From contig NZ_CP011412.1 in the NCBI RefSeq assembly GCF_001007875.1, positions 62,001-126,000 of the forward strand: a stretch of 64,000 nucleotides of DNA. Direction: 5' to 3'. This document shows, piece by piece, positions 4,869 through 44,216 of the stretch. The notes beneath the pieces are model-generated. The model made no database searches. It was not told where the DNA came from and saw only the letters and a list, made by a program, of their open reading frames with translations. Origin of the DNA: Sedimenticola thiotaurini (GTDB lineage: Bacteria > Pseudomonadota > Gammaproteobacteria > Chromatiales > Chromatiaceae). How positions within the stretch are numbered: the first letter of the stretch is position 1; every line of letters begins with the position of its first letter. The translations under genes and the position numbers were made by a program.

Positions 4869-5405
4869 ATGGCTGATACATCCACCCAACCGCTGTGCCC
4901 GAAATTCGCACGGCTGCTAAGGACGTTCAATCGTTCCTTCGCTCTGTTATCCGGTGTGGCCCTGTTCATCATGATGTTGATCGGGGCTGCCGATGCAATC
5001 GGTACCAGTCTCTTTTCCACGCCCATTCCGGCTGCATTCGAAGCCACGGAAGCGTTGATGGTGACCTCCGTGTTTCTGGCGCTGGGACTCTCCCAGCAGC
5101 GGGGTGCGCACATCAGTGTGGAGGTGCTGATCGGTCTCACTCCCTCCATTGTGCAGCGTATCGCGGCTGCACTGGGAAGCCTGTTGAGTCTCGTTCTGTT
5201 CGGACTGATTGCCTGGTTCGGATCGGAGGCGGCCATCGAGAGCTTTACGGTTAACGAGTACTCCTCCGGCATTATCAATTTTCCGATCTGGCCGGCCAAG
5301 GCAGCACTGGCATTCGGCGCAATGCTGATGACAATCCAGTGTGCCTGGGATTTTGTGAACGAACTCCTGGGACGGCACCACACCACCTCCCAACCGAAAA
5401 TTTAG
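4869..5405 (+). CDS. TRAP transporter small permease (DctQ family)
   Basis: A 178-residue inner-membrane protein with four predicted hydrophobic segments, the usual size and topology of the DctQ subunit. It forms a membrane complex with DctM encoded nine bases downstream. A GGAGG sequence precedes the chosen ATG. Its place between binding protein and large permease is the classic P-Q-M order. Confidence 0.9.
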   Translation: MADTSTQPLCPKFARLLRTFNRSFALLSGVALFIMMLIGAADAIGTSLFSTPIPAAFEATEALMVTSVFLALGLSQQRGAHISVEVLIGLTPSIVQRIAAALGSLLSLVLFGLIAWFGSEAAIESFTVNEYSSGIINFPIWPAKAALAFGAMLMTIQCAWDFVNELLGRHHTTSQPKI

Positions 5406-5414
5406 GAGCCGGAT

Positions 5415-6731
5415 ATGGATCCTTTAACTATCGGTTATATCTGTGTTGCTGCGCTGTTCATTTTCCTGGCCCTCGGTGTGCCTGTTGGCGTGGCCATGGG
5501 GGTGCTGGGTGTGGCGGGCATGTATGTCGGCTTCGGGGAGGCGTTCGCGTTCGGTCAACTCCGCACATTACCGTTTTCAGTGGTCAATAATTACGCCTTT
5601 GCCGTGCTGCCGATGTTTGTCCTGATGGGTGTGCTGGCGGAGTCTTCGGGCATCACATCGCAACTGTTTCATGCCGGTGAGCTGTGGCTGCGTAACCGCA
5701 AGGGCGGGTTGTACCAGGCAGTGGTGGTGGGGTCGGCTATCTTTGCCGCCGTGTCCGGATCGACCATTGTCAATGCGGTGGTGTTCACCCGGCTGGCCTT
5801 CCCGCACATGATCCGTTTCGGTTACTCCCGCGCCCTGTCAATCGGTTCGATTGCAGCAGCGGGTAGTTTCGCCGCCATGATTCCGCCATCAATCACCATG
5901 GTGATCTACGCCATTATCACCGAACAGTCGGTCGGCAAACTGCTGATCGCCGGAGCCCTGCCGGGCATTCTCACTGCAGTGGTGTATCTGATGGGTATCA
6001 GCGTGATGGTTCGCATCCGACCTTCACTGGCCCCCGATATCAAAGAATTGTCGACCCGGGCCGAGAAGTGGTCTGCCTTATGGGGTGTGTCGCCGGTTGC
6101 CCTACTGATCGTGCTGGTGCTTGGGGGTATCTATTTCGGTTTCTTCCCCCCTTCGGCCGCCGGTGCCATTGGTGCTTTCGGCGCCTTCTGTATTGCGGTA
6201 ACCCGCAAGTGGGGACAGGGTAGCAAGTGGCTCACCTCGTCGTTGCGGGATGCCGCGTCGGTCAGCTGCATCATCTTCATTATTCTGATTGGTGGCTTGA
6301 TCTTCTCCCGGATGCTGGTGGTATCCGGGGTGATTGACGGGTTCGTCGAACTGGTCAATACGTTTGCCTATTCGCCGCTCCGGTTCATGATATTCATCTC
6401 GATCATGTACATCATCCTCGGCTGTTTCCTCGACACCACCTCGATGCTTGTGGTGACCCTGCCGTTTGTCTTTCCGGCTGTTCAGCAGCTGGATATCGAT
6501 CCGATCTGGTTCGGTATCGTGCTGGTTAAATTGATCGAGATATCGGTGATCACACCACCGGTAGGCATTAACCTGTTCGCCGTGCTCGGCTCGGTATCGG
6601 GCCAGGCGCAGTTTCAGGACGTGGTGAAAGGGGTGCTGCCGTTCCTGTTAATGGAGATCCTCGTGCTGTTGATGTTGATCGCCTTTCCGTCAATTGCCAC
6701 CTGGCTGCCCGAACAGATGATTGCGAGCTGA
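5415..6731 (+). CDS. TRAP transporter large permease (DctM family)
   Basis: A 438-residue, about twelve-segment membrane protein with DctM hallmarks such as GSAIFAAVSGSTIVNAV and AAAGSFAAMIPPSI, and a C-terminal TPPVGINLFAVLG motif. It catalyses sodium-driven uptake of the substrate captured by the binding protein. AGGAG lies eight bases upstream of the ATG. It is complete and of normal length. Confidence 0.93.
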   Translation: MDPLTIGYICVAALFIFLALGVPVGVAMGVLGVAGMYVGFGEAFAFGQLRTLPFSVVNNYAFAVLPMFVLMGVLAESSGITSQLFHAGELWLRNRKGGLYQAVVVGSAIFAAVSGSTIVNAVVFTRLAFPHMIRFGYSRALSIGSIAAAGSFAAMIPPSITMVIYAIITEQSVGKLLIAGALPGILTAVVYLMGISVMVRIRPSLAPDIKELSTRAEKWSALWGVSPVALLIVLVLGGIYFGFFPPSAAGAIGAFGAFCIAVTRKWGQGSKWLTSSLRDAASVSCIIFIILIGGLIFSRMLVVSGVIDGFVELVNTFAYSPLRFMIFISIMYIILGCFLDTTSMLVVTLPFVFPAVQQLDIDPIWFGIVLVKLIEISVITPPVGINLFAVLGSVSGQAQFQDVVKGVLPFLLMEILVLLMLIAFPSIATWLPEQMIAS

Positions 6732-33965: not shown

Positions 33966-34790
33966 TTGAGGGAGAAATACGGCTGGCTGGCGCTGTTACT
34001 GAGCCTGTTGTTACCCGGTGCGCTCCCGGCTGCCACCCCGGAACCGGGGCACCTCCGTTTTGGTGTCCTGCCGCTGCAGAGTCCGACCAAACTGGCGGGT
34101 ATGTTTCTGCCCCTGACCGGTTACCTGGAGCAACAGCTGGACCATCCGGTTCAGTTCGTCACCAGCGGCAGCTTCAATACCTTCATGGAGAAGGTGTCCC
34201 GGCGGGAATATGACATCATCTATCTCAACCCCATGCTCTACAGCCGCGCCCGCCAATACGGTTACCGGGTGATTGCCAAGGTAGCTTCCGAGCCCTTTAC
34301 CGGTATTCTGGTGGTGCGCCGGGATGGGCCGATCCAGTCTCTGTCGGCTGAGTCACTGCCGGCGGGACTGCGGATCGGTTTCCCGGATCCGGGAGCCTAT
34401 GCGGCGACAGTGATGGTGCGGGAGTATCTGCGTTCGATCGGGATCGACGTGGATCGGCAACTGCAGGTGCAGTATTTCGGTTCCCAGGACTCGGCTATCC
34501 TGGCGCTGCATAACGGTCTGGTGGATGTGACCGGGACCTGGCGTCCGTCTCTGCGCTCCATGCCCCGGGCGGTCCGGGATGACCTGCGGATTATTGCCGA
34601 GACACCACCCCAGCCGCAGATGCCTATCGCCGTGCGGGATGACCTGCCCGCCGATCAGATTGAACGACTCTCCCGGGCGCTGACCGGGCTGGCCGGCAGT
34701 GAGCAGGGCCAGGCAATTGTGCGGCGTCTGGGGTTCAAGCGGGGCTTCGAGGCCGCGCGGGATGAGGAGTACCGTGAGGTGAGCCGGTAA
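33966..34790 (+). CDS. PhnD-like periplasmic substrate-binding protein of a signalling operon
   Basis: A 274-residue exported protein with a signal peptide ending near PAAT (residue 22). The fold pattern is that of phosphate/phosphonate PhnD-type binding proteins (LRFGVLPLQSPTKLAGMF, YDIIYLNPMLYSRA). No ABC transporter genes accompany it. The kinase gene starts inside its stop codon (TAATG), so it probably presents a ligand to the kinase. The TTG start follows AGGAGG by six bases. The ligand is unknown. The sulfur genes downstream suggest a sulfur oxyanion. Confidence 0.85.
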   Translation: MREKYGWLALLLSLLLPGALPAATPEPGHLRFGVLPLQSPTKLAGMFLPLTGYLEQQLDHPVQFVTSGSFNTFMEKVSRREYDIIYLNPMLYSRARQYGYRVIAKVASEPFTGILVVRRDGPIQSLSAESLPAGLRIGFPDPGAYAATVMVREYLRSIGIDVDRQLQVQYFGSQDSAILALHNGLVDVTGTWRPSLRSMPRAVRDDLRIIAETPPQPQMPIAVRDDLPADQIERLSRALTGLAGSEQGQAIVRRLGFKRGFEAARDEEYREVSR

Positions 34791-36250
34791 TGGATGCCCC
34801 CCTGTTTTCCGCTGCATCGGTTCGACGTCGGCAGCGCCGCTGGATTCCGCGACCGTTTTATACCCTGCGTGTGCGTCTGATTATCTCCGTGGCACTGGTG
34901 CATGTGGTGTTGATGGGGCTGTTCACCTGGGAGGCGGTGGAGCGTCAGTCCCATGAACTGCGCCTGGAGATGGTCAATCAGGGGCGCTCCCTGGCCAGTA
35001 TGATGGTGGTGGCTTCCACCAACGCCCTGCTGGCGGAGGATCTGGCCTCGCTGGCGGAGGTGACCCGCCGGGTCGGGGTGCGGGAGGACGTTGCCTACGG
35101 TGAGGTGGTGGATATGCGCGGCTTCGTCCTGGCCAGTACCCGGGAGGGACGGGTGGGTCGGATGGTGGGGCCGATGATTGAACGGAATGACCGGTTCCCC
35201 CTGGCCGCCGATGACCGGGTGCTGGATCTGCGGGAGGATGTCCTGATCGGAAAGGATCGGGTCGGTTTTGTTTTGTTGGGGCTGTCCACCATCAATCTGG
35301 ACAACGCCCTGGTGGATACCCGCAATCGGGGTATTCAGTATATTTTGCTGGCACTGGTGATCGGCAGTGTGGCGGCCTGGTTACTCTCCCTGGCTGTGAC
35401 CCGGAATCTGCGTGACCTGACCCAGGCAGCGAAAAAGATCGGTGCTGGGGATCTGAACGTCCGGGTCAATGTGCCTGGCCAGGATGAGACCGGCACCCTG
35501 GCGCGGGCGTTCAACCTGATGGCGGCCTCCCTGCAACGCAGTTCCCGGCAGATGGAACAGGAACATCGCAAGCGCACCGAGGCGGAACGCCTGGCCTGTG
35601 TTGGTGAGATGGCGGCCTCCATCGCCCACGAAATACGCAACCCGATGGTGGCGTTGATCAACTCGGTGAAACTGCTGGAAGACAGCCAGCTGCCCGCCGG
35701 GGATCGGGCGGCGGTGGTGGATATTGTCAATACCGAGTCCAGTCGTCTGCAACGCATCCTGGACGACTTCCTGATGTTCTCCCGCCTGCCGATGCCAAAG
35801 CTGGAATCGGGCGACCTGAAAACCCTGGTGGAGCAGACCATCGGTTTGATCGGCCAGGATCCGCGCTACGGGGAGGGGGTCCAATTCGAGTGCCGCTACG
35901 AGGCGGATAACCACTGCCGCTTCGATTCCGACCTGATGCGCCAGGTGCTGCTCAATCTGATCATGAATGCTATCCAGGCAATCAACGGGGAGGGGAAGCT
36001 GATTATCCGTCTGCAACGGGAACAGGATCACCTCAACGTCAGTATCGTGGATAGCGGCCGGGGAATTCCGGAGGATATGGTGTCGGAAGTGACCAAGCCC
36101 TTTTTTACCAGCCGAAAGGATGGAACCGGCCTGGGTCTGCCGGTGGTGCAACGCATCCTGGCGCAGCACGGGACGGCACTCAGCATCACCAGCCTGGAGG
36201 GGTACGGCACTGAAATGGCGTTTGACCTGGAAGTAACGAGCGATGAGTAA
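34790..36250 (+). CDS. Membrane sensor histidine kinase (HAMP, NtrB-like core)
   Basis: A 486-residue kinase. TM1 lies near residues 30-50 and a periplasmic sensor domain near 50-178. TM2 and HAMP (to about 255) follow, then the HisKA box SIAHEIRNPMVALINS and ATPase motifs NLIMNAIQAI, DSGRGIP and GTGLGLPVV. It is co-translated with the PhnD-like protein before it and overlaps the response regulator after it by eight bases. The three form a ligand-binding, phosphorylation and sigma54-activation cascade. Confidence 0.93.
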   Translation: MDAPLFSAASVRRRQRRWIPRPFYTLRVRLIISVALVHVVLMGLFTWEAVERQSHELRLEMVNQGRSLASMMVVASTNALLAEDLASLAEVTRRVGVREDVAYGEVVDMRGFVLASTREGRVGRMVGPMIERNDRFPLAADDRVLDLREDVLIGKDRVGFVLLGLSTINLDNALVDTRNRGIQYILLALVIGSVAAWLLSLAVTRNLRDLTQAAKKIGAGDLNVRVNVPGQDETGTLARAFNLMAASLQRSSRQMEQEHRKRTEAERLACVGEMAASIAHEIRNPMVALINSVKLLEDSQLPAGDRAAVVDIVNTESSRLQRILDDFLMFSRLPMPKLESGDLKTLVEQTIGLIGQDPRYGEGVQFECRYEADNHCRFDSDLMRQVLLNLIMNAIQAINGEGKLIIRLQREQDHLNVSIVDSGRGIPEDMVSEVTKPFFTSRKDGTGLGLPVVQRILAQHGTALSITSLEGYGTEMAFDLEVTSDE

Positions 36251-37580
36251 TGTACTGATTGTGGATGATGAGTTTTCCATCCGTAAGACCGTCAGCCTGC
36301 TGTTAAAAGGGGAGGGCTTTGTCCCTTTTGAGGCGGCCGGTATCGATGAGGCGTTGGGCTATTTCGAGACCCAATCGATCGACCTGGTAATCACCGATCT
36401 GCGCCTGGGGATGGAGAGCGGTATCGATCTGTTGGCAAAGTTACAGGATCGCGGTCTGGCCACGGAAAGCATTGTCATGACGGCGTTCGGCACGATTGAG
36501 AGCGCGGTGGAGGCGATGCGCCTGGGCGCCTATGACTACCTGACCAAACCGATCAACCCGGATGAGTTGATGCTGCGGGTCCGCAAGGTGTTGGAGCGCC
36601 GCGCCCTGCGGGAAGAGGTGAAACGGTTGCGCATGGTGCTGGATGGCCGCGAGCAGATGCGTTCCATCGTGGCCGCCAGCGCCGCCATGCAGCAGGTGCT
36701 GGACGTGGTGGCGCGTATTCAGGATCGGGACATCCCGGTGCTGATTACCGGTGAGACCGGTACCGGCAAGGAGGTGATCGCCCAGGCCTTGCACAGCAGC
36801 AGTGCCCGGGCGGACAAGCCCTTCGTGCCGATCAACTGCTGTACCCTGCCTGAAGATCTGCTCGATTCCGAGCTGTTCGGGCATGTGCAGGGCGCTTTTA
36901 CCGGTGCCGGCGGCAGCCGGGAGGGGCTGTTCCAGCAGGCCGACGGCGGCACCCTGTTTCTGGACGAAGTGGGGGATGTGAGCCCCCGTCTGCAGGCCAA
37001 GCTGCTGCGGGCCCTGCAGGAGGGTGAGGTGCGGCCGGTGGGTGGCAACAACATTGTCAATGTGGATGTCCGGGTGGTGGCGGCGACCAACCGGGATCTG
37101 GAGGAGATGGCCGACAGGGGGGAGTTTCGGAGCGACCTGCTGTTTCGTCTCAACGTGTTGCCGATTCACCTGCCGCCCCTGCGGGAGCGGCGCGATGACA
37201 TCCTGCCGCTGGCCTGGCATTTCATCCACCAGCTGCATGAGCGCCTGGGGCGGGATGACCTGGGTCTCTCCACGGCGGCCCAGGAGAAGTTGCAGCAGTA
37301 TGACTGGCCCGGCAATGTGCGCCAGCTGGAGAATGTTATCGAGCGCAGTTTTGCCCTCTTTCCCGGGCCGGTGCTGGATGCTCACCAAATTATCATCTCC
37401 ACGCCCGGTAAGGGTGCGGCCAGTGAAGTGCGCGACGAGACCACCCTCACCATCGCCGAACTGGAGGCGCGTCATATCCGGGCGGTGCTGGAAGCGAACA
37501 ACCACAACCAGGTGGCGGCAGCCCGTGTATTGGGGATCAGCCGTTCCACCCTGAGACGCAAAATGAGTCAGATGGGGTGA
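36243..37580 (+). CDS. NtrC-family sigma54 response regulator
   Basis: A 445-residue regulator with a receiver (IVDDEFS, Asp in LVITDLRL, Lys in YLTKPI) and a AAA+ domain with GETGTGKE, the GAFTGA loop and GGTLFLDEVGD. A Fis-type helix-turn-helix (NNHNQVAAARVLGISRSTLRRKM) ends it. It activates RNA polymerase with sigma54. A sigma54 promoter begins 100 bases after its stop and leads into the sulfur-relay genes, the obvious target. Confidence 0.95.
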   Translation: MSNVLIVDDEFSIRKTVSLLLKGEGFVPFEAAGIDEALGYFETQSIDLVITDLRLGMESGIDLLAKLQDRGLATESIVMTAFGTIESAVEAMRLGAYDYLTKPINPDELMLRVRKVLERRALREEVKRLRMVLDGREQMRSIVAASAAMQQVLDVVARIQDRDIPVLITGETGTGKEVIAQALHSSSARADKPFVPINCCTLPEDLLDSELFGHVQGAFTGAGGSREGLFQQADGGTLFLDEVGDVSPRLQAKLLRALQEGEVRPVGGNNIVNVDVRVVAATNRDLEEMADRGEFRSDLLFRLNVLPIHLPPLRERRDDILPLAWHFIHQLHERLGRDDLGLSTAAQEKLQQYDWPGNVRQLENVIERSFALFPGPVLDAHQIIISTPGKGAASEVRDETTLTIAELEARHIRAVLEANNHNQVAAARVLGISRSTLRRKMSQMG

Positions 37581-37679: not shown

Positions 37680-37695
37680 TGGCATCCGGTTTGCA
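37680..37695 (+). promoter_or_regulatory. Sigma54 promoter of the sulfur-relay operon
   Basis: TGGCATCCGGTTTGCA has GG and GC ten bases apart and matches TGGCAY-N5-TTGCA. The expected start site is near 37706, 30 bases before the first gene. The NtrC-type regulator encoded just upstream supports function. Confidence 0.8.
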
Positions 37696-37735
37696 CTTCT
37701 CCAGCTACAACAATAAATTGGCATTTGGAGGGTGC

Positions 37736-38227
37736 ATGGATTTTTTTAAAAAGACGTATGACCCGGTGATCTCCCTGGCGATCATCTCGGTTCTGAATAT
37801 CTTCCTGTTTCTCACGGTCGGTGCCTGGACCGTGGGTGGTGGTGAGACCATGATGACCGGGCTCATCGCCGAGTTTTTCCTGGGCGAGGAGCTGGCCCGC
37901 ATCCCGTTCTGGGATCTGGTATTCCAGCCCGACGCCGGTTACTGGAAAATCTACATCAGCCTCGGCATGCTGTTCGGGGCCCTGGTGGGTGCGCTGCTCA
38001 GCAAGGAGTTCTACTGGCGCGTGCCCAAACATCTTTCCGAGTGGGTCATGATTACCATCGGCGGTCTGTTGATGGGTATCGGTATCCGACTCGCTTTTGT
38101 CTGCAATGTGAGCACCTTTTTTGGATTGACCCCGCAAATGAACCTGGGTGGTTATCTGTCGATTACCGGCATCATTGCCGGTGCCTGGGTCGGTTCACTC
38201 ATCTATAAGAAAGTTCTGGAGGGTTGA
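37736..38227 (+). CDS. YeeE/YedE-family sulfur transporter, first half
   Basis: A 163-residue membrane protein with about four TM segments. It contains the conserved GIGIRLAFVCNVSTFFG motif, whose cysteine in YeeE/TsuA proteins contacts thiosulfate during transport. Full YeeE proteins are single chains of about 350 residues. Here the two halves are separate genes. GGAGG lies four bases before the ATG at 37736. First gene after the sigma54 promoter. Confidence 0.88.
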   Translation: MDFFKKTYDPVISLAIISVLNIFLFLTVGAWTVGGGETMMTGLIAEFFLGEELARIPFWDLVFQPDAGYWKIYISLGMLFGALVGALLSKEFYWRVPKHLSEWVMITIGGLLMGIGIRLAFVCNVSTFFGLTPQMNLGGYLSITGIIAGAWVGSLIYKKVLEG

Positions 38228-38228
38228 T

Positions 38229-38873
38229 ATGTCGGTTGTCGGTCAATGTCTTGCCGCCTTTATCTTCGGCTCGGCGGTGGGTTTCCTGGTACAGCGTTCC
38301 CGTTTCTGCAACACGGCCGCACTGCGTGATGCCATGCTGTTCAAGACCTATCGCAATACCAAGGCGCTGCTGGTCACCATGATGATCCTGACGGTGGGAT
38401 TCACCACCTTCATGACCTTCGGTGACGGCTATCCGTTACAGTTTGATGTGGGTATCAACCAGATCATCGGGCTGTTCCTGTTCGGTATTGGTATGGTGCT
38501 GGCCGGAGCCTGTACCGTCTCCACCTGGGTCAAGGCGGGTGAAGGTAATGTGGGGGCCATCTGGGCGCTGCTGTTCACCTTTATCGGTATGTTCCTGTTC
38601 TCGCTGGTCTGGTCTTTCACCTACTGGCCGCCGGCCTCAGCCACCATGTCCGGTGAACCCAACCTGGCCGGGCTGCAGTTCGGTTTTGCCAATGCGGCCA
38701 CCCTGCAGGAGGAGACCGGTATTCCGGCACTCTTCTTCGGTCTGATCCAGACCGCGGTGCTCTACGCCATCTACCAGGCGATCCTGCGCAAGGAGCGGAG
38801 TATTGCCGCACAGCGTGCCCCGGCCAGCCAGCCGGCGGTAACAACCCAATCACCATTAGAAAGCAAATCCTGA
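38229..38873 (+). CDS. YeeE/YedE-family sulfur transporter, second half
   Basis: A 214-residue membrane protein with five or six TM segments and two cysteine motifs, QRSRFCNTAALRD and GACTVSTWVKAGEG, that complete the YeeE pattern. It starts one base after the first half stops, with GGAGG overlapping the end of that gene. Together they probably move thiosulfate or another sulfur species across the inner membrane. Confidence 0.88.
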   Translation: MSVVGQCLAAFIFGSAVGFLVQRSRFCNTAALRDAMLFKTYRNTKALLVTMMILTVGFTTFMTFGDGYPLQFDVGINQIIGLFLFGIGMVLAGACTVSTWVKAGEGNVGAIWALLFTFIGMFLFSLVWSFTYWPPASATMSGEPNLAGLQFGFANAATLQEETGIPALFFGLIQTAVLYAIYQAILRKERSIAAQRAPASQPAVTTQSPLESKS

Positions 38874-38898
38874 ATTGCACTCCAGAGGAGGAGAAAAC

Positions 38899-39210
38899 AT
38901 GGCACTTTTCGGACGCAAGAAAAAACAACCGGCAGAAGCCGCAGGTCCCACCGGCGAAGTGACGCTGGAAGATGGCAGCACCTATCCGGTCAATCAGATC
39001 GTGGACTGTATCGGCGACTCCTGCCCCCGTCCCCAGTTGATGACCAAGAAGGCGCTCTCCAACGCGGCGTCGGGCGATGTAATCGAGGTGCGGATTGACA
39101 ATCCCACTTCGATGGAAGCGATCCCGCCCATGATGCCGGAACTGGGCAGTACACACCTGGGCACGGTCAAAGACGACCGTTACTGGCGTGTCATCGTCCG
39201 TCGACAGTAG
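38899..39210 (+). CDS. TusA-family sulfur carrier protein
   Basis: A 103-residue protein with the TusA motif DCIGDSCPRPQLMTKKAL, whose cysteine carries persulfide. A basic and Ala-rich extension of about 30 residues (FGRKKKQ) precedes the fold and may bind membrane or a partner. TusA proteins relay sulfur in the cytoplasm. Linkage with YeeE is a known association. AGGAGG precedes the ATG. Confidence 0.9.
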   Translation: MALFGRKKKQPAEAAGPTGEVTLEDGSTYPVNQIVDCIGDSCPRPQLMTKKALSNAASGDVIEVRIDNPTSMEAIPPMMPELGSTHLGTVKDDRYWRVIVRRQ

Positions 39211-39219
39211 GGTGGGCTT

Positions 39220-39429
39220 ATGAGCAAAGGTTATATCCTGATGCTGACACTCTCCCTGGCGGTGACGGGTGTCTCGGTCGCTTCACTCGGCTATATCATC
39301 TCGGCCCAGCCGGACTATCTCCATTCCGATCGTGACGGGGTGCCGTTCTACACCCCCAAGGTGATCAACCCGGAAGGGGGCGAGCCATTGAGTATGGGCG
39401 AGCTGATTCGCCACTTTAAGGGAGAGTGA
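39220..39429 (+). CDS. Small single-TM protein of the sulfur operon (69 residues)
   Basis: I do not recognise a family. Residues 5-29 form one TM helix. The short exported part ends with EPLSMGELIRHFKGE. This end resembles that of the 88-residue protein two genes on (IPVFELVDYYLENPP), which suggests two related mini-proteins. It has no cysteine. It sits nine bases after the TusA gene. Confidence 0.75.
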   Translation: MSKGYILMLTLSLAVTGVSVASLGYIISAQPDYLHSDRDGVPFYTPKVINPEGGEPLSMGELIRHFKGE

Positions 39430-39430
39430 T

Positions 39431-39523
39431 ATGGAGCTGAGTCTGCAAACCTGGATTCAACTGGGCATGTTCGTACTGGCGATGGCCGTGCTTTATATCA
39501 GCATGACCAGCGATTCAACCTGA
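39431..39523 (+). CDS. Very small membrane peptide (30 residues)
   Basis: The ATG follows GGAGAG by four bases, one base after the previous stop. The peptide is MELSLQTWIQLGMF plus one TM helix and a short polar tail. The next gene has its own GGAGAG 12 bases later. It resembles CcoQ-like or assembly micropeptides in design, but no homology is claimed. Confidence 0.6.
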   Translation: MELSLQTWIQLGMFVLAMAVLYISMTSDST

Positions 39524-39535
39524 GGAGAGTGCAAG

Positions 39536-39802
39536 ATGCGCCGTGAAATAGTGATTTTCAACCTGCTCAGCCTGCTGGTTACTCTGGGTATCAGTGCACT
39601 GCTTTTCGGTAGTGCCTCGGTGCCGGACGAGAAGCGCCTTGCCGCCAGTGAGCCACAGCCGGTGGAGGCTTTCGAGGATGTGGATCTGGGGCCCGATTAT
39701 GGTGAGATACCGGTATTCGAACTGGTGGATTACTATCTGGAAAATCCGCCGGTAAAGTCCGCGACAGCGGCGCCGGTGCAGCGCCATTTTGGTGGCTGCT
39801 AG
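39536..39802 (+). CDS. Small single-TM protein ending in Gly-Gly-Cys
   Basis: An 88-residue protein with a TM helix at residues 7-27, an acidic exported segment, the IPVFELVDYYLENPP motif and a flexible end RHFGGC. The terminal cysteine is the only one. A Cys on a Gly-rich C-terminal arm recalls SoxY (GGCGG), where it carries sulfur covalently. It is followed without a gap by a rhodanese-like gene. A membrane-tethered sulfur carrier is proposed, not shown. Confidence 0.75.
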   Translation: MRREIVIFNLLSLLVTLGISALLFGSASVPDEKRLAASEPQPVEAFEDVDLGPDYGEIPVFELVDYYLENPPVKSATAAPVQRHFGGC

Positions 39803-40639
39803 GTGGTGATCCGGTTCGCCACGCTCTGTTGCCTGGGCCTGGTGGCGTTATCGCTGCAGGCGGCCGAAACCGGGTTACGGTTTATCGACCGGTTGCCCGG
39901 GGACGACAGCTGGCGGATGCTGGACACCCGGCCCCACAGTCAGTGTGAAAAACGCACGATCAAGGGGGGGCGCTGCCTGGCCGCCAGCGATCTGCTCGGC
40001 CACAGCGGTCGTCTGCCAAGCCTGCGGGACATTGTCTGGTTACTCGGCACCCTGGGGCTGAAAGGTGATGAGACCGTGGTCGTGGCGGGCCAAACGGGAG
40101 CCGCTAGAGACTTTATTGCCGGTCTGCTCTATCTGGCCGGGCAGAAGCAGGTGCTGGTGCTGCAACCACCCTTGAGTCGGGTGATGTCCGGTACAACCGT
40201 GCCACTTGACATGGGTCGGACCCGCAGCATGAGCCGTGAGCAACACTACGTGGCGCGCCCACGGGATCACCTGATCGTGCTGCGTCGTGAACTGCAGCGA
40301 CGTCTGGTGCAACAGGAAGTCCTGCGTCTGCTGGATGTACGCAGCCAGGCCGAGTACTGGGGCGAACAGATACGCGGCTGGCGGGGCGGTCACATCCCGG
40401 GGGCGGAGTTTGTCGCCTCTCTGGATGTGCTGTCACTCCGGCCGACACAGGCCGGTGTAAGTACAGTGATCTATGGCCATGGGCCGTTTGAGTCGATCGC
40501 CGCCTTCGCCCGCTTACAGGGGCAGTGGAGTGGACCTGTACAGGTGTTGATCGAAGGCTGGCGTGCCTGGTCGGCGGACGCCACTCTGCCGGTCGATGCG
40601 GAAACTTATAACGATAACAAGACGCTGATCGATTCCTGA
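39803..40639 (+). CDS. Exported tandem rhodanese-like protein lacking catalytic cysteines
   Basis: A 278-residue protein with a signal peptide ending LQAAE and two rhodanese-like domains (VVVAGQTGAARDFIAGLL and LRLLDVRSQAEYWGEQIRGW with HIPGAEF). At the positions of the rhodanese cysteine loop it has AGQTGAAR and YGHGPFES, so neither domain can form the usual persulfide. It probably binds rather than transfers sulfur, or positions the Gly-Gly-Cys protein. The GTG start directly follows the previous stop. Confidence 0.78.
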   Translation: MVIRFATLCCLGLVALSLQAAETGLRFIDRLPGDDSWRMLDTRPHSQCEKRTIKGGRCLAASDLLGHSGRLPSLRDIVWLLGTLGLKGDETVVVAGQTGAARDFIAGLLYLAGQKQVLVLQPPLSRVMSGTTVPLDMGRTRSMSREQHYVARPRDHLIVLRRELQRRLVQQEVLRLLDVRSQAEYWGEQIRGWRGGHIPGAEFVASLDVLSLRPTQAGVSTVIYGHGPFESIAAFARLQGQWSGPVQVLIEGWRAWSADATLPVDAETYNDNKTLIDS

Positions 40640-40692
40640 TCACCGGAACGTCAGTAGTCTATAGAAACGCCTTCGGGCTAAGGGAGGTATGT

Positions 40693-40983
40693 GTGAATCT
40701 GCTGTTTATTGTATCCACGCCGGGTGCCGGGCGCTTGCTGAAGTCGCTGGCGGCGGCCTGTAAGCGCAAGGGCACCCGATGGAGCTGTTTCTTTACCAAC
40801 GACGGGGTAAGTATTCTGGCCGAACCCGGGATGGAGGATCTGTCCTGTTGCGCGCAACGGGTGGTGGTCTGCGAGCACTCCTGGGCCCGTTTCATGGGGG
40901 ATAAGCCCTGCCCGGTAGAGCTGGGCAGCCAGACCCAGAACAGCATCATGGTCGGTGAAGCCGATCGGATTGTGAGTCTGTAG
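40693..40983 (+). CDS. Small DsrE-like protein A
   Basis: A 96-residue cytosolic protein beginning with a beta-strand/helix MNLLFIVSTPGAGRLLKSLAAACKRKG style segment as in DsrE-fold proteins, with CFFTNDGV and a possible active cysteine in VVVCEHSW. It ends ADRIVSL. Shorter than DsrE (about 130). GTG start with GGGAGG five bases before. The first of three similar small genes. Confidence 0.65.
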   Translation: MNLLFIVSTPGAGRLLKSLAAACKRKGTRWSCFFTNDGVSILAEPGMEDLSCCAQRVVVCEHSWARFMGDKPCPVELGSQTQNSIMVGEADRIVSL

Positions 40984-40993
40984 GGGAGGAGCT

Positions 40994-41266
40994 ATGGCAA
41001 ATAAAAATCTGGTTGTACTGGCGCGGCGGGATCACGCGGAAGCGATGCGTGTGGCGGCCGGCCTGACCATCGCCGGCCACGGGGTTCGTCTGATCTTCAT
41101 GACCGGTCCGGTGGAAGAGACGCCTGAAAACATGGAGCAGGCGGAGACGCTGGAGCTGTGTGATATCGAGCCGGAGACCACGGTTCGTGGCGAAGAACTG
41201 CCCTATATGGATAGTGCCGCTCTGTCGCTGGCTCTGCTCCAGGCGGACAGTGTGATCAATCTTTAA
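40994..41266 (+). CDS. Small DsrE/DsrF-like protein B
   Basis: A 90-residue protein with the pattern KNLVVLARRDHAEAMRVAAG and GHGVRLIFMTG expected of a DsrE/F fold. It has one cysteine (LELCDIE) and ends ADSVINL, like its neighbours. GGGAGGAG precedes the ATG. It may form a complex with the genes on either side, as DsrE, DsrF and DsrH do. Confidence 0.65.
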   Translation: MANKNLVVLARRDHAEAMRVAAGLTIAGHGVRLIFMTGPVEETPENMEQAETLELCDIEPETTVRGEELPYMDSAALSLALLQADSVINL

Positions 41267-41281
41267 GGGACCCGTATAACA

Positions 41282-41467
41282 ATGAATATAGCCGTATTAA
41301 AAACCGGTCTGTTCCCCGACAGTGAAACCGTCGAAGAGGGGATCGACCACCTATTATCGCGTTGCAACCTGTATCAGTATGATGCAACACGTGACGATCT
41401 CTCGGACAGTGACTGGGATCAGATCCTTGATGAGATTCTGGATGCTGAACGTCTGATCGTGCTCTAA
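41282..41467 (+). CDS. Small acidic protein C, DsrH/TusB-like by position
   Basis: A 61-residue acidic protein with one cysteine (LLSRCNLYQYD) and the same closing pattern as its neighbours (AERLIVL). It is shorter than TusB or DsrH, so the family call is tentative. It is the third member of a row of three with spacings of 10 to 15 bases. Confidence 0.55.
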   Translation: MNIAVLKTGLFPDSETVEEGIDHLLSRCNLYQYDATRDDLSDSDWDQILDEILDAERLIVL

Positions 41468-41486
41468 AAACAACAGGAGGATGGAT

Positions 41487-42410
41487 ATGAAAATAATCAA
41501 CAAGATCGGCAGTGGATTGGCGTTACTGGGTTTCTGTTCGATAGCCTGGGGCGCAACGCCACTGGTTGATGCGAACTGGGTAAAAGAAAATAGCTGTAAT
41601 CCGGATGTACGGGTGCTGGATATACGCAACAAGCTGGATGGCGGATCCAAAACAACCTACATGCGGGGACATATTCCCTGTGCGATTCACACCGACTACG
41701 CCAAGGATGGTTGGCGCATTACGGTCAATAAAGTGCCCGGCCTGCTACCCCCGGTGGATAAGCTGGAAAAACTGATCGGTGGCCTGGGTGTGGATAATCA
41801 GACCCATGTGGTGATTTATCACGCCGGTAAAAACGCCCTGGATCTTGGCAGCGCCACCCGGGTCTACTGGACTTTCAAGGTGCTGGGTCATGATAATGTC
41901 TCTATTCTCGATGGTGGTTTTGCCGCTTACACCGCAGACAAGAAAAACCCGCTGGAGAAGGGCAACAAAAAGGCTGAACCAAAAACTTTCAAGGCGACCC
42001 TGAACGAATCGGTGCTGGCGACCAAAGAGGATGTTAAGGCAGCCATCGACAGCGGCGTGACCCTGATTGATAACCGGCCGAACCATCAATACCTGGGTAT
42101 CAACAGGCATCCCAAGGCGACCCGTAATGGCACCATACCGCAGTCCAAAAATCTGCCGGAGAGCTGGCTGACCGTAAATGGCGGGGGTAAATTCCGCGAT
42201 ACGGCGTCGTTGAAAAAGCTCTACCAGGTTGCAGATGTCTCCCCTGAGGGTGATACGATCAACTTCTGCAATACCGGTCACTGGGCATCCCTGGGCTGGT
42301 TTGTCGGCAGCGAACTGCTGGGTAACAAGCAATCCCGTCTCTATGATGGCTCCATGGTAGAGTGGACAGTGGATAGCGCACTGCCGATGAGTGAGCAAGT
42401 CAAGCTCTGA
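41487..42410 (+). CDS. Exported tandem-domain sulfurtransferase (rhodanese) with active cysteine
   Basis: A 307-residue periplasmic rhodanese with a signal peptide ending AWGAT. The N-terminal domain has HAGKNALD in place of a cysteine loop. The C-terminal domain has the active loop FCNTGHWAS. Domain arrangement matches thiosulfate/mercaptopyruvate sulfurtransferases. It should form a persulfide in the periplasm and could load the Gly-Gly-Cys protein. The start at 41487 gives AGGAGG a six-base spacing. The ATG at 41481 abuts it. Confidence 0.88.
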   Translation: MKIINKIGSGLALLGFCSIAWGATPLVDANWVKENSCNPDVRVLDIRNKLDGGSKTTYMRGHIPCAIHTDYAKDGWRITVNKVPGLLPPVDKLEKLIGGLGVDNQTHVVIYHAGKNALDLGSATRVYWTFKVLGHDNVSILDGGFAAYTADKKNPLEKGNKKAEPKTFKATLNESVLATKEDVKAAIDSGVTLIDNRPNHQYLGINRHPKATRNGTIPQSKNLPESWLTVNGGGKFRDTASLKKLYQVADVSPEGDTINFCNTGHWASLGWFVGSELLGNKQSRLYDGSMVEWTVDSALPMSEQVKL

Positions 42411-43039
42411 TGAGCCGGTTTTTAATCGGATTGGTGGCCGGAATCGCCCTGTTGATTCCGGCCACCGTTATTTCAGCTGGCGAACAGCAGCGCCGCTTCA
42501 CGGTGGAACTGGCCCTGCTCGCGGGTGACAGTCGCCTGTTGCAGGAAGAGAGCCTGTCTGTCGAAAAACGCCGCTGGATCGAGGGACGCATCACCAGCGC
42601 CTTGAATGTATTACCGTTATTGGCGAGACAGTTTCTGGAAGAGTCCGGGCTGACGGATAACAGCCTGTTGGAGCGGCTGGGTGGTCTGCAGCAGCAGAGA
42701 CCGGGCTCTGTCGCGCTGCTGACGGCGGCCCGTGAATTGAGTCAACAGTTTCCCATCCCCTTTCCCGTCGATTTTCAGCAGCCGCTGGGCGTCTCCGCCG
42801 AGTCAGAGATTAAAACGGTTTACCAGCAGTTGTGTCTTGGTTGTCACATAACATCGGCCCCCGAGTCGTCCGTTGTGATAGGCAACTTCGGCAGTTTCGC
42901 CCGCTCCATGCCGGATAGTGAATGGCTGGCCCGTCTGCTGGGAGGGCTGCGGGGTGATGCCTATACCGGTTATGAAAATCCCTTCAGCGATGCGGAGATC
43001 GCTGCCCTGTTTCGCTATACCCGGGACGAACTTCCCTGA
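42410..43039 (+). CDS. Exported monoheme cytochrome c-like protein
   Basis: A 209-residue protein with a signal peptide ending VISAG. An uncharacterised helical region of about 110 residues follows, then a C-terminal cytochrome domain with one CLGCH heme site and a possible methionine ligand in ARSMPDSEW. It starts inside the stop of the rhodanese gene (TGATG). It would take electrons from periplasmic sulfur oxidation. Last gene of the operon. Confidence 0.82.
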   Translation: MSRFLIGLVAGIALLIPATVISAGEQQRRFTVELALLAGDSRLLQEESLSVEKRRWIEGRITSALNVLPLLARQFLEESGLTDNSLLERLGGLQQQRPGSVALLTAARELSQQFPIPFPVDFQQPLGVSAESEIKTVYQQLCLGCHITSAPESSVVIGNFGSFARSMPDSEWLARLLGGLRGDAYTGYENPFSDAEIAALFRYTRDELP

Positions 43040-43448
43040 CCGGTGATATAGACTCCTTTGCTGTTCCCAGTTCAACTGTTGGTCTTTCGGATCACTGATA
43101 GATTGATCTGATCCGGTAACGGCTGGTTTCAACCACCGGGTTTGCCCCCGTTCGGTGAAAGCATTCCTGATAGATGCGCACTCCTGGGTCCAACTTATCC
43201 AATGACTGTTGTTCCTGCATTGAACTCGCCGGAATGAATAAAAACGCTGCACGCTGATAGCCTAGGAATCCATATCGGGTAAAAATCGTCAGTATTTTTT
43301 ACAGTGGGTGATTTTAATGACTGAGTGAGCTTTTTAACTTATTGATTAATAAGGGTATGTGTGGGGTTGGCACGACTAGTGCTTTATGTCGATTACGAAA
43401 ACACGCTGACCAATTTTAATGCTCAGGTTAGAGCAAGGGAGTTACGAG
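43040..43448. other. Intergenic region of 409 bases with inverted repeat and sigma54 promoter
   Basis: An inverted repeat cggatca-N14-tgatccg spans 43088-43115 after the cytochrome stop, possibly a terminator stem. The stretch from about 43290 is AT-rich and leads to a sigma54-type promoter at 43367-43383. I find no gene. Confidence 0.5.
43367..43383 (+). promoter_or_regulatory. Sigma54-type promoter of the PEP-CTERM gene
   Basis: TTGGCACGACTAGTGCT has a perfect TTGGCACG -24 box and a GTGC -12 box, with ten bases between GG and GC. It lies 66 bases before the start codon. PEP-CTERM genes in other bacteria are known to be under PrsK/PrsR and sigma54. Confidence 0.72.
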
Positions 43449-44216
43449 ATGAAAAAACTGAAAAAACTGTGGGGTGCGCTGGCGGCTTTGCCCCTTCTGT
43501 TTGGGGCAACCCAGGTGTCGGCGGTTCCAGTGGATTTGGAACTGTCCCTGGTGATCGATGTATCCGGTAGTGTCAGCACGAGTGAATACAATCTGATGAT
43601 GGACGGGTATGCTAACGCCTTCCGCGATGCCACCATCCAGAACAATATCCTCAGTACCGCCAATGGCGATCTGGGGCAGATCGCGGTGAATGTGGTCTTC
43701 TTTGCTTCAAATTTCTACACAACCGCATTGGATACTTTTACCCTGCTGGACTCAGCGGCAGCGATTAATACTTTTGCCGATACCCTGGATAACTTCGCTC
43801 GTCCCGGGGGTGGTGGAACCGACATCTTTGATGGTGTTAATGCTGCGACAGCTCTGCTGACTGCTGATAACGGCTTTGAAAGCACCAACCTGATTATGGA
43901 TGTCTCCGGTGACGGCACCTCCACTGCATTCTTTACTCAGGCCGCCCGGGATGCGGCAGAAGCGGCAGGTATCACCATCAACGGTATCACCATTGGTAGT
44001 CAGGGTATCAATGATTTCTACATCGCTAATGTGATTACCAGTGATGGTTTTGCGCTTCACGCGACCGATTTTGATGATTTCTCCAACGGTATCAAAACCA
44101 AACTGGTGGTTGAAACCAGTGGTGGCGATACGTCCGTACCTGCACCGGCAACCCTGTTGCTGATGGGCGCCGGTCTGTTGGGCTTCAGCGCTACTCGGCG
44201 CCGCAAAGCCAGCTGA
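43449..44216 (+). CDS. PEP-CTERM-anchored DUF1194/von Willebrand A-like exported protein
   Basis: A 255-residue protein with a signal peptide ending VSAVP and a VWA-type domain whose metal site reads DVSGSVS. A sorting tail VPAPATLLLMGAGLLGFSATRRR follows. This tail is recognised by exosortase for processing and surface or matrix delivery. The MIDAS motif suggests ion-dependent adhesion. AGGGAG lies seven bases before the ATG at 43449. Exosortase genes are not in this window. Confidence 0.88.
   Translation: MKKLKKLWGALAALPLLFGATQVSAVPVDLELSLVIDVSGSVSTSEYNLMMDGYANAFRDATIQNNILSTANGDLGQIAVNVVFFASNFYTTALDTFTLLDSAAAINTFADTLDNFARPGGGGTDIFDGVNAATALLTADNGFESTNLIMDVSGDGTSTAFFTQAARDAAEAAGITINGITIGSQGINDFYIANVITSDGFALHATDFDDFSNGIKTKLVVETSGGDTSVPAPATLLLMGAGLLGFSATRRRKAS

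Follow-up and report, generated by a model that had tools for sequence, protein, structure and literature searches.

A conserved twelve-gene operon of Sedimenticola thiotaurini, a strongly extended variant of the YeeE-TusA-DsrE sulfur-relay core

Sedimenticola thiotaurini SIP-G1 is a salt-marsh sulfur-oxidising gammaproteobacterium with replicons of 3,928,944 and 33,340 bases (PMC4472907). We analysed a stretch of 64,000 nucleotides of its genome (contig NZ_CP011412.1, positions 62,001 to 126,000; called the window below, with positions counted from its first letter) and, within it, an operon of twelve genes. This operon is real, conserved and regulated, is mostly uncharacterised, and represents a known core (a YeeE-family transporter, TusA and DsrE) in a strongly extended form. 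Sequence comparison and a structural model make it reasonably probable that the operon encodes an inducible import-and-relay line, in which periplasmic sulfane sulfur would be taken up by a split YeeE transporter and handed to TusA, then to a mini DsrE protein and finally to the reverse Dsr pathway. The gene set and its order, the conserved cysteines, the predicted fold of the mini DsrE protein, the link between promoter and regulator, and the co-occurrence with sulfur oxidation genes are the observations behind this proposal.

The twelve genes and their conservation

A sequence-only reading of this DNA had counted eleven genes. The sequence and the list of its open reading frames (ORFs) give twelve, tightly packed and consecutive at 37736-43039 (+) (aa, amino acids):

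37736-38227 (+): C-terminal half of a YeeE/YedE transporter, PmpA-like, 163 aa (PF04143 model positions 172-310)
38229-38873 (+): N-terminal half of a YeeE/YedE transporter, PmpB-like, 214 aa (PF04143 model positions 1-161)
38899-39210 (+): sulfur carrier of the TusA family, 103 aa, extended at the N-terminus (PF01206, E 8e-18)
39220-39429 (+): p69, a 69-aa single-transmembrane protein without known family
39431-39523 (+): p30, a 30-aa single-transmembrane peptide
39536-39802 (+): p88, an 88-aa single-transmembrane protein with C-terminus Gly-Gly-Cys
39803-40639 (+): pRhd, a tandem pseudo-rhodanese of 278 aa, probably exported, judging from its N-terminus (PF00581, E 1e-12)
40693-40983 (+): E96, mini DsrE of 96 aa with active-site candidate C60 (predicted fold)
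40994-41266 (+): F90, a 90-aa alpha/beta partner in the DsrF position (predicted fold)
41282-41467 (+): H61, a 61-aa partner in the DsrH position (gene position)
41481-42410 (+): Rhd309, a probably exported two-domain sulfurtransferase of the thiosulfate/mercaptopyruvate type, 309 aa, catalytic C263 (PF00581, E 2e-22)
42410-43039 (+): cytc, a mono-haem c-type cytochrome of 209 aa, probably exported (CxxCH)

The same gene order elsewhere and the concentration of differences at codon position 3 indicate that these are genuine genes; chance small ORFs, a candidate explanation, were rejected on these two grounds. In p69 and E96 most differences from two relatives lie at codon position 3; p88, F90 and H61 show the same with a single relative (locus L011). 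With p30, comparison with L013 gives a clear excess (11 of 17 changes), which comparison with L011 does not (8 of 17).

A scan of a genome collection with an alignment of F90 gave 114 relatives, the best 80 of which were analysed. These 80 loci (numbered L, and their genomes G) come from alpha-, beta- and gammaproteobacterial records. Labels of p69 that overlapped YeeE genes, a spurious drift of the profile, were left out of the gene counts. F90, the query, and H61 are present in all 80 loci, E96 in 79, cytc in 78, pRhd in 77, p88 in 74, p30 in 72, TusA in 70, p69 in 68 and Rhd309 in 66; the N-half of YeeE is found in 69 and the C-half in 68, the one unsplit gene of L083 being counted in both. 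All twelve genes occur in 52 of the 80 loci. L060 stands outside these 52, since one of its ORFs matched both p69 and p30, and p30 is accordingly a separate pick in 71 loci (72 with the shared ORF). Apart from L060, 27 loci are incomplete: 12 are close to the end of a contig, Rhd309 alone is missing from 11 and p69 alone from 3, and the remaining one, L083, is a different cluster. The gene order is kept in 79 of the 80 loci, the exception being L051, with the rhodanese after the cytochrome.

The sequence-only reading had named lack of conservation of the small genes in other genomes as a refuting result, and had proposed a search for co-conserved genes with p88 as query. That result did not arise: the small genes recur in 68 to 80 of the 80 loci. 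Within the family, p88 occurs in 7 of 96 sampled genomes including the source genome, and the six others match it in gene content and order within the limits of their contigs. Two of these are cut off; in one of them, L016, BLAST missed p30, which a profile detected in L079, a copy of this locus. Among the named hosts are Thiobacillus, Sulfuriferula, Sulfuritalea, Thiorhodococcus, Magnetovibrio, Maritimibacter, Rhodobium and Acidiferrobacter.

In a tree of the operon proteins, rooted at the midpoint only, alpha, beta and gamma labels are mixed in places and L083 is an outlier with a very long branch; therefore no claim is made on gene transfer. Two label problems were seen. The operon proteins of L042, labelled Rhizobium sp., are very near those of the Thiobacillus loci L036 and L040, and this metagenome-assembled genome (MAG) is possibly mislabelled. 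L069 (Thiobacillus) and L071 (Rhodocyclaceae), also MAG labels, have identical operon proteins (five compared), which may reflect a label conflict or a recent transfer.

Transporter, carriers and the mini DsrE unit

The two YeeE halves are encoded in reverse order, C-half first, and match Sulf_transp (PF04143) with E 4e-21 and 2e-24. The C-half aligns to the TsuA chains 8j4c and 6leo, its C123 matching the third TsuA cysteine, and the N-half aligns to TsuA 6leo, its C27 and C95 also matching TsuA cysteines. All three are invariant (C27 in 68/68, C95 in 69/69, C123 in 67/67; here and below, denominators omit gapped rows). TusA likewise has an invariant C42 (70/70). The split YeeE/YedE halves and the TusA-like carrier of the sequence-only reading are thus borne out, the former by the Pfam and TsuA alignments and the latter by its match to PF01206 and by C42.

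Split YeeE halves are already described as PmpA and PmpB, for example from Serratia, in passages of PMC11582611. As there, two half-size YeeE proteins with transport cysteines are encoded by separate genes and are expected to pair. In contrast to PmpA and PmpB, which according to the same passages share one conserved cysteine each, the N-half also holds the first TsuA cysteine (C27), and the halves are part of a twelve-gene operon. These passages also describe YeeE-like SoxT as an importer of sulfur for oxidation. SoxT1A of Hyphomicrobium, a YeeE-family protein that imports sulfane sulfur to be oxidised in the cytoplasm and has a small transmembrane protein encoded nearby, resembles the system proposed here in these respects; it is a full-length transporter that accompanies an sHdr system, whereas here the transporter is split.

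The operon adds three small membrane proteins that match no family above cut-off, and one of them, p88, has an invariant C-terminal cysteine. For p69 there was no Pfam match at E<=1 and no NCBIfam match, for p88 no Pfam match at E<=1 and no NCBIfam family above cut-off, and the sole Pfam match of p30 lies below cut-off. The peptide p30 ends at most 700 nucleotides before the end of p88 in 72 of 72 loci, and its D28 is conserved in 68/71. The Gly-Gly-Cys ending noted earlier for p88 holds up in its last two positions across the relatives: G87 and C88 are the final residues in 74/74, and a single cysteine follows residue 27 in 73/75 (among the 74 loci with p88, that of L085 is a 27-aa fragment). 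We propose that p88 is a tethered sulfur carrier, and the position of its terminal cysteine, at the end of a tethered tail, is suggestive of a swinging arm. SoxY has a cysteine motif at a Gly-rich C-terminus, and is likened to p88 by analogy only and not as a homologue: both have a cysteine at a Gly-rich C-terminus, sulfur-carrying in SoxY and proposed to be so in p88, and p88 is small and membrane-anchored. A text search of PMC11237559 for the SoxY motif gave 'swinging arm' passages only, the motif being absent from the text searched.

The two rhodanese-like proteins differ in their catalytic loops. In pRhd the catalytic-loop cysteine is missing from both domains, except for one sequence with a cysteine at position 224, so that this protein does not qualify as a thiosulfate or mercaptopyruvate sulfurtransferase. 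It had been called cysteine-less; this is right for the catalytic loops and wrong for the protein as a whole, a description rejected because C48 (75/75) and C58 (76/76) are invariant. Rhd309 matches rhodanese 1rhd with E 2e-28 and has two rhodanese domains with the catalytic cysteine in the second, as in the thiosulfate/mercaptopyruvate enzymes (C263, 66/66). Its C39 and C67 are both present in 27 sequences, both absent in 39 and never single, as expected for a disulfide in an exported protein. The last gene had been read as a cytochrome c, and its CxxCH is conserved in 76/76; Pfam gives Cytochrome_CBB3 only below cut-off (E 0.006).

E96 matches Pfam DsrE below cut-off (E 0.03). Its AlphaFold2 model (45 aligned sequences) has pLDDT 94.7, and the three best Foldseek matches in PDB are a TusBCD chain (2d1p) and the DsrE-family proteins 3pnx and 2qs7. 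They are followed by a designed cage (8uja) and by 2pd2, a conserved hypothetical protein of equal length that we take to be DsrE-like. These five matches have TM-scores by query length of 0.63-0.78 and E 0.006-0.02. C60 is conserved in 78/78 and C73 in 73/79; C60 is predicted to lie at a strand end before a helix, like the cysteine of the canonical DsrE of the host (VVCVAAAQRRG; equivalence by eye). A DsrE-like fold is therefore predicted for E96. F90 is modelled as an alpha/beta fold with pLDDT 95.9. The cysteines of F90 (11/80) and H61 (7/80) are not conserved.

No DsrE of type I, as scored by TIGR03012, is encoded in the operon. The single match of the genome is at C1:3741296, where the canonical DsrE gene and genes for DsrF-, DsrH- and DsrC-like proteins (by sequence) directly follow dsrAB at C1:3.74 Mb. 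The three mini genes of the operon therefore form a second, much shorter set. The two sets are alike in the DsrE-like fold, as predicted for E96, in its cysteine position and in the adjacency of three genes. They differ in locus, in length (96, 90 and 61 aa against 137, 129 and 102 aa for the ORFs of the source genome) and in sequence, E96 being 15-27% identical to canonical DsrE in a forced alignment.

The YeeE-TusA-DsrE core has been published as YTD or yeeE-tusA-dsrEFH type II (parts of PMC13293266 and PMC12998232), and also figures in passages of PMC9751629, PMC8780430 and PMC13047784. In excerpts of PMC13293266, the DsrEFH type II of a cable bacterium transfers sulfur in vitro from TusA to DsrE and on to DsrC, and type II occurs mostly with reductive dsrAB. 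Subtype 1 is reported there also from Pseudomonadota (21% of the subtype), more often with oxidative dsrAB, and the match threshold of the type II models is given as 80 bits. The mini E-F-H proteins may therefore already be counted in that subtype. Like the YTD clusters of cable bacteria and sulfur disproportionators, the operon joins yeeE, tusA, dsrE and two small partner genes in one cluster, and its E96 combines a predicted DsrE fold with one conserved active cysteine (C60), in a comparison that contained no type II sequence. It is not filed as a plain YTD cluster because the single full-length YeeE/YedE is replaced by two half genes. Further differences are the extra p69, p30, p88, pRhd, Rhd309 and cytc, the control by a PhnD-type protein, a kinase and an NtrC-type regulator, and the presence of canonical DsrE in most operon hosts tested.

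It could still be argued that the operon is simply a YTD cluster in split-transporter form, serving disproportionation or the Dsr pathway, with the extra genes of minor importance. Core and context are the same, subtype 1 in Pseudomonadota perhaps includes the mini E-F-H (PMC13293266, in part), and L083 and L114 (G018) have an unsplit YeeE, TusA and the mini E-F-H and lack p88, pRhd, Rhd309 and cytc, as does L115 (G086), the sequence of which begins inside yeeE. These three loci form a bridge between the YTD and twelve-gene forms. However, the extra genes and the core show about equally strict conservation, and type II is described with yeeE/yedE and tusA synteny and with none of the extra genes named in the parts of PMC13293266 consulted, which makes this explanation unlikely. 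A 2026 survey in which complete YTD was confined to Desulfobacterota and Nitrospirota (PMC12998232, in part) is not counted against it because Pseudomonadota apparently lay outside its coverage. As a separate observation, the YTD-like gammaproteobacterial clusters of L083 (8687-9472) and L115 (3366-4151) have a protein of radical-SAM type directly before the E gene, and universal-stress-like and glycosyltransferase-like proteins after H (all judged from sequence).

The statement of the sequence-only reading that no named pathway has this set must consequently be narrowed. The core corresponds to YTD or type II and the split halves to PmpA/PmpB; for the full twelve-gene set no description was found in the literature searched, which covered open-access main text in part. 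Within that literature, the split transporter, the three small membrane proteins, pRhd, Rhd309 and cytc are an undescribed extension of the published core.

Control and sulfur-oxidation context

Upstream of the operon lie a promoter element and three regulatory genes, named X, S and R here:

33966-34790 (+): X, PhnD-type periplasmic binding protein, likely an oxyanion sensor (PF12974, E 8e-52)
34790-36250 (+): S, membrane histidine kinase (HAMP, HisKA, HATPase_c)
36243-37580 (+): R, NtrC-type response regulator (Response_reg, Sigma54_activat E 7e-69, HTH_8)
37680-37695 (+): sigma-54 promoter element (-24/-12), TGGCATCCGGTTTGCA, from the sequence and its relatives

The element TGGCATCCGGTTTGCA lies 40 bases 5' of the first start codon, so that binding protein, kinase, regulator and -24/-12 site stand together in the window. 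X-S-R adjoins the operon in 18 of the 80 loci, upstream in 16 and downstream in 2; it is upstream in L011 and L013, and none was seen in the parts covered of L014 (2.2 kb on the upstream side) or L015. The sigma-54 consensus was scored out of 12 in all loci with upstream sequence (67, counting the window), with a threshold of 10 that was chosen after the scores were seen. Where the regulator is immediately upstream, 16 of 17 loci score at least 10 and the 17th scores 9. The threshold is reached by 4 of 6 loci with the regulator elsewhere in the locus, by 11 of 44 with none seen nearby, and by 31 of 1340 shuffled windows. The earlier label 'sigma54-driven' is thus supported for this lineage; other lineages have a different neighbouring regulator.

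Clustering of 621 ORFs from the flanks points to such regulators. Eight loci have a divergent ribbon-helix-helix gene (RHH_4) a short distance upstream (L038, L043, L044, L055, L076, L086, L092 and L094; in L044 at 5068-5442 on the minus strand, E 1e-19), and none of the eight belongs to the 18 with X-S-R. Its product is likely an alternative regulator, and since it replaces X-S-R in these loci, control differs between lineages. A LuxR-type regulator occurs 1.5-2 kb upstream in 7 loci of one lineage, and other flank families found in at least 6 loci are farther off or confined to related loci. PhnD-like domains are known or proposed in sensors of tetrathionate and thiosulfate (passages of PMC5408782), and a periplasmic binding protein encoded with regulator genes senses arsenic oxyanions (PMC5908839). 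X-S-R is likened by gene content to such AioXSR-type sensing, in which the genes for binding protein, kinase and response regulator also stand together; here they adjoin sulfur genes. On the other side, just 3' of the operon (window 43446-44216), lies a gene for a DUF1194/von Willebrand A domain protein with a PEP-CTERM signal (E 2.5e-6).

The gene dsrA, defined as TIGR02064 over cut-off with reductive and oxidative types pooled, was surveyed in 52 genomes, 8 of the family and 44 from the 80 loci. It was found in 48 of the 52, or in 46 of 50 when G095 (no operon found) and G135 (L083) are set aside; these 50 include some with the operon form lacking Rhd309 or p69. The misses are G050, which has a fragment of 378 bits at the end of a contig, and the Acidiferrobacter-branch MAGs G123, G126 and G131, whose close relatives G113, G117 and G118 have dsrA. 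The operons of these three MAGs may feed a different cytoplasmic pathway, or the MAGs may be incomplete. For comparison, 3568 reductive and 2452 oxidative dsrAB genomes among 202,601 are reported in passages of PMC13293266; the background frequency of dsrA in our data was measured within the order of the source genome only. Canonical DsrE (TIGR03012) is present in 24, soxB in 26 and soxC in 4 of 27 of these genomes; without G135 the counts are 23, 25 and 3 of 26. As soxB occurs mostly without soxC, sulfane sulfur should stay on the Sox carrier in most of the hosts tested.

Several side observations concern the same genomes. The source genome has two dsrA over cut-off (C1:2273167-2274369 and C1:3738877-3740082). 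Two or three copies occur in 14 of the 52 genomes, with three in G105 and G108, the Thiobacillus genomes of L036 and L040. A sigma-54-like site, TGGCCCG-N4-TTGCT, is present in L061, L066 and L075, the loci of G123, G126 and G131.

Proposed relay and its alternatives

The sulfur-relay idea of the sequence-only reading is supported by co-conservation, by invariant cysteines of carriers and transporter, by co-occurrence with soxB and dsrA and by the rarity of soxC. The route may be pictured as follows. The PhnD-type sensor, the kinase and the NtrC-like regulator would respond to a sulfur oxyanion, for example thiosulfate or tetrathionate, by opening the sigma-54 promoter. In hosts with soxB and no soxC, sulfane sulfur would be left on the Sox carrier, and the operon would supply an exported donor, a transporter, cytoplasmic acceptors and a redox partner. 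Exported Rhd309 would load itself with periplasmic sulfane sulfur and pass it to the C-terminal cysteine of membrane-tethered p88, with pRhd as a docking scaffold; the cytochrome would accept electrons if a reduced form (HS-) were loaded. This proposed role of the cytochrome is the least certain step. The YeeE halves, with the helices of p69 and p30 as subunits, would then move the sulfur across the membrane via their three conserved cysteines. TusA would accept it and hand it to C60 of the mini DsrE, from which E96 with its partners F90 and H61 would deliver it to DsrC and reverse DsrAB.

More tentatively, and with a clearly lower probability, the YeeE halves, p69, p30, p88, pRhd, Rhd309 and cytc may form one undescribed machine for sulfane-sulfur translocation. 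In such a machine, the charged rhodanese would load the single-cysteine arm of p88, the dead rhodanese would dock this arm onto the split YeeE channel with its two tiny helical subunits, and cytochrome c would couple loading to respiration.

A number of observations weigh against the import-and-relay line. None of the 1344 fold matches of E96 reaches E 0.001, all being at E 0.006 or above. F90 had no Pfam match at E<=1, and its fold search returned generic alpha/beta proteins with no DsrE among the 50 listed of 1832 matches. H61 has weak Pfam matches only, below cut-off, and neither Pfam nor PDB sequence searches identify it as DsrH; PDB searches with E96, F90 and H61 gave nothing useful, with no meaningful match for H61. 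Of the three mini DsrE-like proteins claimed earlier, E96 has thus gained predicted fold support, F90 stands without a DsrE match among those listed and H61 without independent support. Positive-inside charge counts, made for p69, p30 and p88, leave the membrane side of the tails of p88 and p69 unsettled, and because they do not fix its side, p88 may instead act on the cytoplasmic side. No NtrC-type regulator was seen nearby in 44 of the 67 loci with upstream sequence. Canonical DsrE is already present in 23 of 26 operon hosts, and the operon loci of G123, G126 and G131 (L061, L066 and L075) contain no Rhd309, these genomes having neither dsrA nor DsrE over cut-off. Most genomes reached via the loci are MAGs of unstated completeness. 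Finally, within the order of the source genome the 90-aa gene occurs in 13 of 210 genomes, compared with 180 of these 210 that have dsrA over cut-off, which makes the operon an optional accessory.

Assimilatory uptake of thiosulfate by a TsuA/TsuB-like system would account for the conserved transporter cysteines and for the weak matches of the YeeE halves and TusA to the TsuA and TsuB models. It is very unlikely: the TsuA matches reach 26-65 bits against NCBIfam cut-offs of 400 and 645 and the TsuB match 19.5 against 147.5, and the rhodaneses, the cytochrome, the DsrE unit and the co-occurrence with sox and dsr point to energy metabolism. With all NCBIfam matches below cut-off, assimilation was rejected as the main function. 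A module for sulfur signalling or detoxification, clearing excess reactive sulfur and not feeding respiration, would suit a cluster with its own sensor system, and SoxT1B of Hyphomicrobium serves signalling (passages of PMC11582611). Twelve genes with a cytochrome and a DsrE unit seem excessive for a signal, however, and no persulfide dioxygenase was found among them by Pfam, so that we regard such a role as highly improbable. The least probable alternative, handling of selenium or tellurium oxyanions by YedE/YedF- and ExtH-like proteins, draws on the best NCBIfam matches of the YeeE halves (YedE/FdhT selenium) and TusA (YedF), on a match of the rhodanese to ExtH and on selenate respiration by SIP-G1 (PMC4472907), but all these matches lie below cut-off, on which ground selenium was rejected as the main function, and soxB in 26/27 and canonical DsrE in 24/27 genomes tested, with several hosts from sulfur-oxidiser genera, argue against it.

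The import of sulfur into the cytoplasm of sulfur oxidisers is termed poorly understood, in the context of Hyphomicrobium and sHdr, in passages of PMC11582611. The operon is a complete, regulated candidate for such import in Thiobacillus, Sulfuritalea, Magnetovibrio, Thiorhodococcus and Sedimenticola, and since each carrier has an invariant cysteine, the route is directly testable. If such a translocation machine exists, it would provide the step that takes sulfur from periplasm to cytoplasm in some bacteria with truncated Sox and reverse Dsr pathways.

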